Source of the DNA: Candidatus Tectimicrobiota bacterium
GTDB taxonomy: Bacteria; JACPUC01
Reading direction: 5' to 3'
NCBI GenBank assembly: GCA_016192455.1
Contig: JACPUC010000010.1
Location: forward strand, 62,001 to 126,000
Length of the DNA stretch: 64,000 bases
A program made the translations under genes and the position numbers. Below the pieces are notes generated by a model that was given only the letters and a program-made list of their open reading frames with translations, searched no databases and was not told the DNA's origin. This document shows, in pieces, positions 12,437-14,607 of this stretch (position 1 is the stretch's first letter; each line of letters begins with the position of its first letter).

Positions 12437-14038
12437 ATGACCGGGGAACCAACTCGACCGATTGCCGGCCGCGCCAGCGCTGCGGCCACGGCTGCCTTCG
12501 CCCGCCGGCAGGGGGCGGCGCGGCCGCGCCTGGAGCCGACGGCCTTCCGCGAGCTGAGCGGCACGGGCCTCACCGTCTCCAAGGTGGGCTACGGCACCTA
12601 CCGCGTGCACGTCGACGTACCGGAGCACCATGAGACGCTCGCCGAGGCGATCCGCCGCGGCTGCAACTGCATCGACACCTCGAGCAACTATACGGACGGC
12701 GGCAGCGAACGCCTCATCGGCGCGGTGCTGGGCGACCTCATCGGGGCCGGCGAGGCGCGGCGCGAGGAAATCGTGCTGGTCTCGAAGGTGGGCTACCTGC
12801 AAGGGCAGAACCTTGACCTGGCGGTGCAGCGCCAGGCGCGGGGGAACCCCTGGCCGGAGATTGTCCATTACCAAGAGGGTTGCTGGCACTGCATCCACCC
12901 CGATTTCCTCGTGGACCAGCTCGAACGCAGCCTGGCCCGCCTGCGGTGCAGCGCCCTCGATGTCTACCTCCTCCACAACCCGGAGTACTTCTTCGCACAC
13001 GCCCTGCATGACTCCGGCTCCCAGGACCTGCCGGCCCTGCGCGACGAGTTCTATCGCCGCGTGGAGCGCGCCTTCGCGCAGTTCGAGCGCTTCATCCAGG
13101 AGGGGCGGCTGTCATTCTACGGCATCTCCTCGAACACCTTCCCCAATCCGCGGCAGGACGGCGAGACGGTCAGCCTCGACCGCGTCCTGGCGGCGGCCCG
13201 CCGGGCCGCGGCGGAGGTGCTCGGCGACCCTGAACGGCACCACTGCAAGGTCGTGCAGCTCCCCTACAACCTCTTTGAGAGCGGCGCTCTGACGGAGCGC
13301 AACACGCCGCTCAACGGCGCCTCGGCAACCCTCCTCGAGGCCGCGGCCGCCTGGGGCGTCGGCGTCCTCGTCAACCGCCCCCTCAACGCCATCCGCGGCA
13401 ATTCCATGCACCGCCTGGCGCGGCCGGCGCCGCCGCCGGGGAGCGACTATGCCGGCGAGCTCGAGACGACGCTGCGCGCCCTGCAAACAACGGAAGCAGC
13501 GCTGCGCCAGGAGATGGAGGGGTGGCCCCAGCCCCCGCGCGCCTCGGACCTCGGCCCGCAGCAGCAGTTCTTCTTCGACGTCGGCGAGGTGCTGGCCGCC
13601 AACCTCGCGCGCCTGCCGGCGGGCGAGCAGTGGGAGATGATCGTCGGCCGGATCCTCGCCCCGAACATCCAGAAGGCCCTCGAGGAGGCCCTGCGCCGCT
13701 GCCCGATTGAGCGCCGCGAGGCCTGGAAGGGGCGGCAGCCGGCCTACGTTGAGCAGCTCAACGCTCTCCTCGCCGGCATCCGGCGCTACCACGAGTGGCG
13801 CGCCGCCGAGCAGATGGCGCCGCTCGACGACCGCCTGGCGGCCTGCCTGCCGCCCGGCACTCCCCAGGCGACGCTCTCCCAGAAGGCCCTCCAGTTCGTC
13901 GCCTCGTCTCCCGGCGTCGCCGTCGTCCTTAACGGCATGAAGCGCTCCCCGTACGTGGAAGATGCCCTCGCCATCATGGAGATGCCGTCGTATGCTGACG
14001 TGATGGGGCTGGCAGCCGCGGCCTACGAAACCTCCTGA
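12437..14038 (+). CDS. Aldo/keto reductase with long C-terminal extension
   Basis: The product is 533 aa, about 200 residues longer than a standard aldo/keto reductase. The catalytic tetrad can be traced: Asp and Tyr in CIDTSSNYTDGGSE, Lys in VLVSKVGYL, and His in DVYLLHNPEYF. The barrel ends with a VNRPLNAIR segment, after which a helical extension of about 190 residues continues to the end. A GCWHCIHPDFL insertion with two cysteines follows strand 3. The start at ATG 12437 has AGGAGG upstream. The extension and insertion suggest a subfamily with its own substrate or a bound cofactor; I do not recognise a named enzyme. Confidence 0.75.
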   Translation: MTGEPTRPIAGRASAAATAAFARRQGAARPRLEPTAFRELSGTGLTVSKVGYGTYRVHVDVPEHHETLAEAIRRGCNCIDTSSNYTDGGSERLIGAVLGDLIGAGEARREEIVLVSKVGYLQGQNLDLAVQRQARGNPWPEIVHYQEGCWHCIHPDFLVDQLERSLARLRCSALDVYLLHNPEYFFAHALHDSGSQDLPALRDEFYRRVERAFAQFERFIQEGRLSFYGISSNTFPNPRQDGETVSLDRVLAAARRAAAEVLGDPERHHCKVVQLPYNLFESGALTERNTPLNGASATLLEAAAAWGVGVLVNRPLNAIRGNSMHRLARPAPPPGSDYAGELETTLRALQTTEAALRQEMEGWPQPPRASDLGPQQQFFFDVGEVLAANLARLPAGEQWEMIVGRILAPNIQKALEEALRRCPIERREAWKGRQPAYVEQLNALLAGIRRYHEWRAAEQMAPLDDRLAACLPPGTPQATLSQKALQFVASSPGVAVVLNGMKRSPYVEDALAIMEMPSYADVMGLAAAAYETS

Positions 14039-14088
14039 GGGGGAGAAGGTTCCTCCACGCGATCTCATCTTGCGAAAGGGTGGCGGCA

Positions 14089-14607
14089 ATGGCTCTTACG
14101 GTACGCGTCGGTGATCGTTTCCCCGATTTCGAGCTGCCCTCGTCAAGCGGCGAGGTGGCGAGGCTCTCCGAGCTGCTCAAGAAGAAGCCGAGCATCGTCG
14201 CCTTCTATCGCGGCTACTGGTGACCGAAGTGACAGGTCCAACTGCGGGAATTGGTCCAATTCCATGACACGATCGCCCACAGCTACTGCGATGTCGTCGC
14301 GGTGAGCACCGACAGCGTCTCGGAGTGCGCCGCCTTCCGCGCCGGCCTGAACGCGCGCTTCACCTTCCTCAGCGACGCCGAGCGCCAGGCCGTCGAGCGC
14401 CTCGGCATCGTTGATGACTCCGACCCCCGGCGCCCGCGCATCGCCGCGCCCTTCACCTTCGCCCTGCTGCCGGACCTCACCGTGCACCGCATCTACAACG
14501 GCTGGTGGTTCGTCGGCCGGCCGACGCCGCATGAGCTGCGCCTGGATATTCGTGAGATGAGCCGCCGCTGCCGGGAGAACTACGAGGGGCCCTGCGCACC
14601 CGCGTAG
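14089..14607 (+). CDS. Peroxiredoxin-like (AhpC/TSA) selenoprotein with two in-frame TGA codons (UxxU)
   Basis: One frame from ATG 14089 to TAG 14607 encodes 172 aa if TGA at codons 45 (14221) and 48 (14230) are read as selenocysteine. The sequence around them is FYRGYWUPKUQVQLRELVQ, which matches the AhpC/TSA pattern FYRGxWCPxCxxQL, so both redox cysteines are replaced. The upstream half (VGDRFPDFELPSSSGE) and the downstream half (DVVAVSTDSVSECAAFRAGL, then RFTFLSDAE) are both typical of the family and stay in the same frame. A SECIS-like hairpin follows (14247-14263). A hydroperoxide or disulfide reductase role is inferred. A pseudogene with two chance stops is unlikely because both lie exactly at cysteine positions and the frame is otherwise intact. 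Confidence 0.85.
14247..14263 (+). promoter_or_regulatory. Bacterial SECIS-like hairpin of the UxxU peroxiredoxin
   Basis: GGAATT pairs with AATTCC around the pentaloop GGTCC. Counting the T of the second TGA (14230) as 1, the loop begins at base 24, the position where bacterial SECIS loops carry their SelB-binding G and U. The Escherichia coli fdhF SECIS has a very similar GGUCU loop. Relative to the first TGA the loop starts at base 33, so one element may serve both codons. Confidence 0.65.

Follow-up and report, generated by a model that had tools for sequence, protein, structure and literature searches.

The selenoprotein SelL reportedly carries a UxxU motif in a thioredoxin-like fold, with one SECIS element for both selenocysteine (Sec) residues. 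Its diselenide redox motif occurs in fish, invertebrates and marine bacteria (Shchedrina et al., 2007, PMID 17715293, as cited in PMC2397514). The UxxU motif is already known: a diselenide bond has been demonstrated in SelL (cited in PMC2397514), and UxxU Prx-like sequences have been reported from ocean metagenomes (PMC2398784). Among AhpC/TSA (PF00578) proteins, reviews record both UxxC and UxxU, with one to two Sec (PMC9312934; PMC13188914, Table 1). Prx-like 2 of the Global Ocean Sampling data, of which some members have UxxU, shows weak similarity to pfam04592 and is only distantly related to known peroxiredoxins (PMC2398784). A paper on the Asgard selenoproteome names a Prx-like family, the terms "UxxU" and "two Sec" being absent from its text (PMC11227280). 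The first-pass annotation of the locus described here had called a double-Sec active site rare, which stands, and had known of no characterised example in the family, which has to be amended, SelL being a UxxU diselenide precedent as cited in PMC2397514.

The locus lay in a window of 64,000 nucleotides (the whole stretch of DNA analysed), which belonged to a draft assembly of 4.46 Mb in 31 contigs with 88% completeness. Of the 172 codons of the frame, numbers 45 and 48 were TGA; the frame read FYRGYWUPKU through these codons and ended with the stop codon TAG at 14605–14607. Besides the two TGAs there were no internal stops or frameshifts. The double-TGA frame is confirmed as an observation, with the intact frame and both codons as they had been annotated. 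With the TGAs read through, the protein matched Pfam AhpC-TSA (PF00578) with 83.9 bits (E 1e-23, gathering cut-off 26). The match covered residues 7–126, spanning both TGAs. Third-codon-position GC was 0.87, similar to that of neighbouring genes. The upstream neighbour was not kept beside the orthologues described below, and no conserved gene neighbours of these orthologues were found within 6 kb, where flanks exist. The features of the locus are listed in Table 1.

Table 1. Coordinates of the predicted double-Sec gene and of the features in and around it (window positions).
Feature	Position	Strand	Basis or remark
Predicted Prx-like selenoprotein gene, 172 aa, WUPKU active site	14089..14607	+	Frame, Pfam, orthologue alignment, AlphaFold pLDDT 91
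Predicted first Sec codon TGA, residue 45	14221..14223	+	Cys or Sec in every aligned relative
Predicted second Sec codon TGA, residue 48	14230..14232	+	Sec, Cys, Asp or Glu in relatives
Candidate SECIS hairpin GGAATTG-GTC-CAATTCC, loop 14254–14256	14247..14263	+	30 nt after first TGA, 21 nt after second
Possible ribosome-binding site AAAGG, 9 nt before ATG	14075..14079	+	By eye
Upstream gene, 50 nt away, TGA stop; putative aldo/keto-reductase-like by eye	12437..14038	+	

The first-pass annotation had read both TGAs as selenocysteine and had named selA, selB, selC and selD as the genes to look for; all four were found in the genome that holds the window. The selA gene (596 bits) adjoined selB (366 bits), selD (389 bits) was located on contig C3 and had an in-frame TGA of its own, and the tRNA-Sec (75.5 bits) had the anticodon UCA. 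Three more Prx-like genes, each having one TGA that forms part of a UxxC motif, were present in the same genome at C23:22739-22984 (-), C30:65874-66260 (+) and C31:75967-76320 (+), and all three had downstream hairpins. Judging from the Prx-like UxxC genes and the TGA-containing selD, the genome appears rich in selenoproteins.

Scanning 84,980 species genomes with the pattern FYRGxWUxxUxx[QE]L, both TGAs being required, gave 28 matches, made up of ten orthologues, eleven other UxxU Prx-like proteins and seven sequences that were read and judged to be chance matches (L062, L067, L070, L072, L074, L075, and L076). The ten orthologues were full-length, about 170 aa long, and had the TGA pair at the same two codons, all within WUPKU, so that a chance origin of the pair is excluded. 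They were 45–52% identical to the window protein, had a mean column identity of 74% and shared the C-terminal motif NGW[WY]..GRPTP.ELR; for the subfamily the conserved form is NGW[WY]..GRP[TS]..ELR. Their records were labelled Actinomycetota, Acidimicrobiia, Latescibacteria, SAR324 (n = 3), Myxococcota, and Deltaproteobacteria (n = 3). Close homologues showed neither stops at non-cysteine positions nor frame decay. With the machinery present and the TGA pair conserved in ten orthologues, the double-selenocysteine reading is strongly supported.

SelA scored above the cut-off in all 14 bacterial genomes with a UxxU relative, compared with one of 14 control genomes. It was below the cut-off in two Lokiarchaea with a UxxU relative, as expected, because archaea make Sec-tRNA by another route. 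The eleven other UxxU Prx-like proteins came from Lokiarchaeota (n = 7), Nitrospinaceae, Bacillota (n = 2), and Clostridia. Those of Lokiarchaeota (L063, L065, L066, L069, L071, L078, and L085) were a separate group with the motif FFRGxWUxYU, and those of Nitrospinaceae, the two Bacillota and Clostridia (L079, L082, L084, and L083) were distinct UxxU Prx-like proteins, all accompanied by SelA. No UxxU match to the pattern was obtained in a viral scan, and phage records gave only two partial matches.

A profile search without the TGA requirement, with stops read through, covered 1,733 genomes around five UxxU organisms. The homologues that the first-pass annotation had suggested looking for were recovered, having TGA at the same two codons or TGA at codon 45 and Cys at 48. 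The close clade (n = 14) contained only UxxU, plus UxxC in three genomes related to the Acidimicrobiia one, and more distant relatives had UPKD (n = 5) or CPKE/CPKD. Residue 45 was Sec or Cys in 37/37 aligned sequences. Residue 48 was Sec, Cys (three relatives) or, in the remainder, Asp/Glu; the in-frame UGA of the redox site was kept as UGA or Cys throughout the close clade of 14, codon 48 being acidic further out. The UxxD relatives (L091, L092, L093, L121, and L122) would have Sec only at codon 45, codon 48 being Asp. No all-Cys CxxC member of the subfamily was seen among the aligned relatives. The annotation had placed TGA at "both CxxC cysteines", which holds for the wider AhpC/TSA and ResA-type proteins but not for this subfamily, where the nearest non-Sec forms have Cys45 and Asp/Glu48. 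The four plasmid relatives that were read were CxxD; in a Calothrix plasmid (L129:301-1134), the CxxD relative made up the N-terminal portion of a longer protein that carried the annotation cold shock protein.

In a tree built without the two active-site columns, the window protein branched off first within the UxxU/UxxC clade (95/92). The UxxC members were nested inside this clade (99/93), which suggests that they lost the second Sec later. The same tree, unrooted, placed UxxU beside a CxxE clade. When the tree was rooted with distant UxxC/UxxU relatives (active-site columns kept), the acidic forms grouped together, and the alternative topology for the polarity of Sec48 was not rejected (AU p 0.26). 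The claim that Sec48 replaced Asp/Glu, considered in view of the unrooted tree, was accordingly left aside.

In the published model of bacterial SECIS elements (PMC13188914), the hairpin follows the UGA at a distance of 16–37 nt, G occurs in the first two positions of its loop, and the energy limit is -7.5 kcal/mol. The candidate hairpin (Table 1) agreed with the geometry of this model and its pairs were conserved, its core of -5.3 kcal/mol being weaker than the limit if that limit applies to the core alone. The six outer pairs formed in 14/14 UxxU/UxxC genes (84/84 cells paired). Two of the six showed compensatory changes (GC/AU and CG/UA), with nine double-changed cells, a level reached in 0/500 shuffles; this covariation represents few evolutionary events. 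In the single-sequence comparison with shuffles, the folding energy of the window hairpin was not unusual. Back-translation of the peptide ELVQF gives a near-palindrome, and synonymous resampling of each gene therefore formed all six pairs in 16–78% of trials; the UxxU genes did not reach significance in this test. The evidence for the hairpin is consequently joint and moderate. Some Cys relatives with an ELVQ-like peptide had similar hairpins, indicating that the peptide itself dictates part of the hairpin. Hairpins were stronger in Sec-containing than in Cys-containing genes of the family (Mann-Whitney p 8e-5, on related sequences with one duplicate row).

The same hairpin was found in the UxxC relatives, 29–30 nt from their sole TGA. 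The same-genome UxxC paralogues on C23 and C31 had strong hairpins with the loop about 21 nt after the single TGA (counted by hand), and the UxxD genes L091–L093 had a different hairpin, 16 nt from the only TGA, that was unlikely to arise by codon choice (p 0.001–0.02). Another hairpin, closer to the first TGA (A2 columns 21–36), was considered and rejected, as only 33% of its cells were paired and it was not conserved; RNAalifold gave a 3-bp CAG/CUG helix there, without covariation. The hairpin at 14247–14263 as a single SECIS for both UGAs is thus a candidate that is supported but not proven.

The AlphaFold model, computed from a 37-row alignment, gave a confident peroxiredoxin fold (pLDDT 91.1, pTM 0.88), in agreement with the Pfam assignment. 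The nearest solved folds were all peroxiredoxins, namely Bcp4 (Z 24.0), BcpB (Z 22.2), and AhpE (Z 21.8). Homology and fold suggest a redox function for the predicted protein, which very probably contains two selenocysteines at U45-P-K-U48, selenium insertion being predicted from the sequence. In the proposed mechanism, both UGAs would be decoded by SelB with Sec-tRNA(UCA), directed by the one in-frame hairpin, which lies within the known working range of both codons. The U45-P-K-U48 motif would be situated at the N-terminus of the first active-site helix. U45 is taken as the most likely attacking nucleophile because residue 45 is the invariant one, and U48 would be the resolving residue. The enzyme would then cycle between a di-selenol and an intramolecular diselenide (a selenosulfide in the UxxC relatives), reducing a peroxide, a disulfide or another oxidised molecule with electrons probably drawn from a thioredoxin-type donor. 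Taken by itself, this cycle with U45 as nucleophile appears rather more plausible than not.

Several other explanations of the TGA pair and of its chemistry were weighed against this reading. The draft state of the assembly, in 31 contigs and at 88% completeness, would allow the two stops to come from a pseudogene or from a sequencing or assembly error, but ten independent assemblies carry both TGAs in the same places, the frame is otherwise uninterrupted and its third-position GC is typical; the orthologues rule this explanation out, leaving it a negligible chance. Still smaller is the probability that this genome reads TGA as sense, for Trp, Gly or Cys. No evidence in support of it was found, the genome has dedicated Sec machinery, and reassignment is ruled out since 14 of 29 long ORFs in the window, including the gene just upstream, terminate at TGA, making it an ordinary stop in an unchanged code. 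It is also conceivable that one UGA is efficiently read as Sec and that the other mostly terminates or is misread, the main product being short or single-Sec. A single candidate hairpin shared by two UGAs nine bases apart would fit this, as would the spacing, since the 21 nt to the second TGA equal the distance in the single-Sec paralogues of the same genome and the first TGA is 30 nt away. Both codons, however, are TGA in ten orthologues from several phyla, 21 and 30 nt both fall inside the published range of 16–37 nt, and the UxxC relatives keep their hairpin 29–30 nt from the only TGA, a spacing that is evidently used; a mainly short or single-Sec product is accordingly improbable.

A different assignment of roles accepts both Sec residues and has the protein act as a peroxidase through U48, at the position of the peroxidatic Cys, while U45, which occupies the position of the catalytic Thr, would be the resolver. 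Profile alignment to solved peroxiredoxins does match residue 45 to the Thr and residue 48 to the peroxidatic Cys of TxxC, and the fold matches BcpB, Bcp4 and AhpE. The peroxiredoxin motif PxxxT/SxxC itself, though, was absent, with RGYWUPKU in the window protein, CPKE/CPKD in relatives, and the Pro of PxxxTxxC replaced by Arg41. The invariant residue is moreover 45 and not 48, and with Asp/Glu at 48 most relatives have no peroxidatic residue there. Catalysis through U48 is therefore possible but unlikely, and the cycle with U45 as nucleophile is retained as the working model. A further proposal, doubtful as a whole, is that of a distinct subfamily in which Sec48 stands for an acidic residue (as in the CPKD/CPKE relatives) and not for an ancestral Cys, no CxxC stage preceded UxxU, and a single weak hairpin serves both UGAs, which are nine bases apart. 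If true, it would run counter to the rule by which Sec takes the place of Cys, and it could be tested on the natural UxxU/UxxC/UxxD/CxxD/CxxE series.

Bacterial double-Sec active sites are few and almost uncharacterised. The subfamily offers a compact protein of 170 aa with a predicted UxxU site across several phyla, together with close natural variants having UxxC, UxxD, CxxD and CxxE. Such a series would allow the contributions of the first and the second selenium to be measured directly, and would show how one SECIS can act on two neighbouring UGAs, 21 and 30 nt away.

Compared with the systems described so far, the window protein resembles SelL in its UxxU motif, but its score with NF040769, the SelL-related model of NCBIfam, was only 43.7 bits (cut-off 120), the comparison being by model only. 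This was the best subfamily-level hit among the NCBIfam models, none of which matched at its cut-off, and no gene of the genome passed the cut-off of NF040769. The Prx-like thiol:disulfide oxidoreductases of PMC13188914 have the same Pfam domain, motif and number of Sec, a likeness by description only, as that row is a domain-level category (representative WP_010940744.1); the present subfamily differs from it in the C-terminal motif given above and in the Asp/Glu at 48 of its Cys relatives. Prx-like 2 is likewise Prx-like with some UxxU members, yet the window protein had no match to pfam04592 at E 0.1 and, unlike Prx-like 2, matched PF00578 strongly. Sec-containing peroxiredoxins of the TxxU type share the fold and have Sec at the position of residue 48, but their Thr corresponds to the predicted Sec at residue 45. 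ResA/TlpA proteins (CxxC) have the WCxxC layout and a related fold, with only about 20% sequence identity; ResA is extracytoplasmic, and no N-terminal extension was visible in the window protein. What is added to these known systems is a defined, unnamed subfamily that, as read from its genes, keeps WUPKU across phyla, together with its relatives of the UxxC, UxxD and CxxD/E types and one hairpin that is a candidate SECIS for the two codons.
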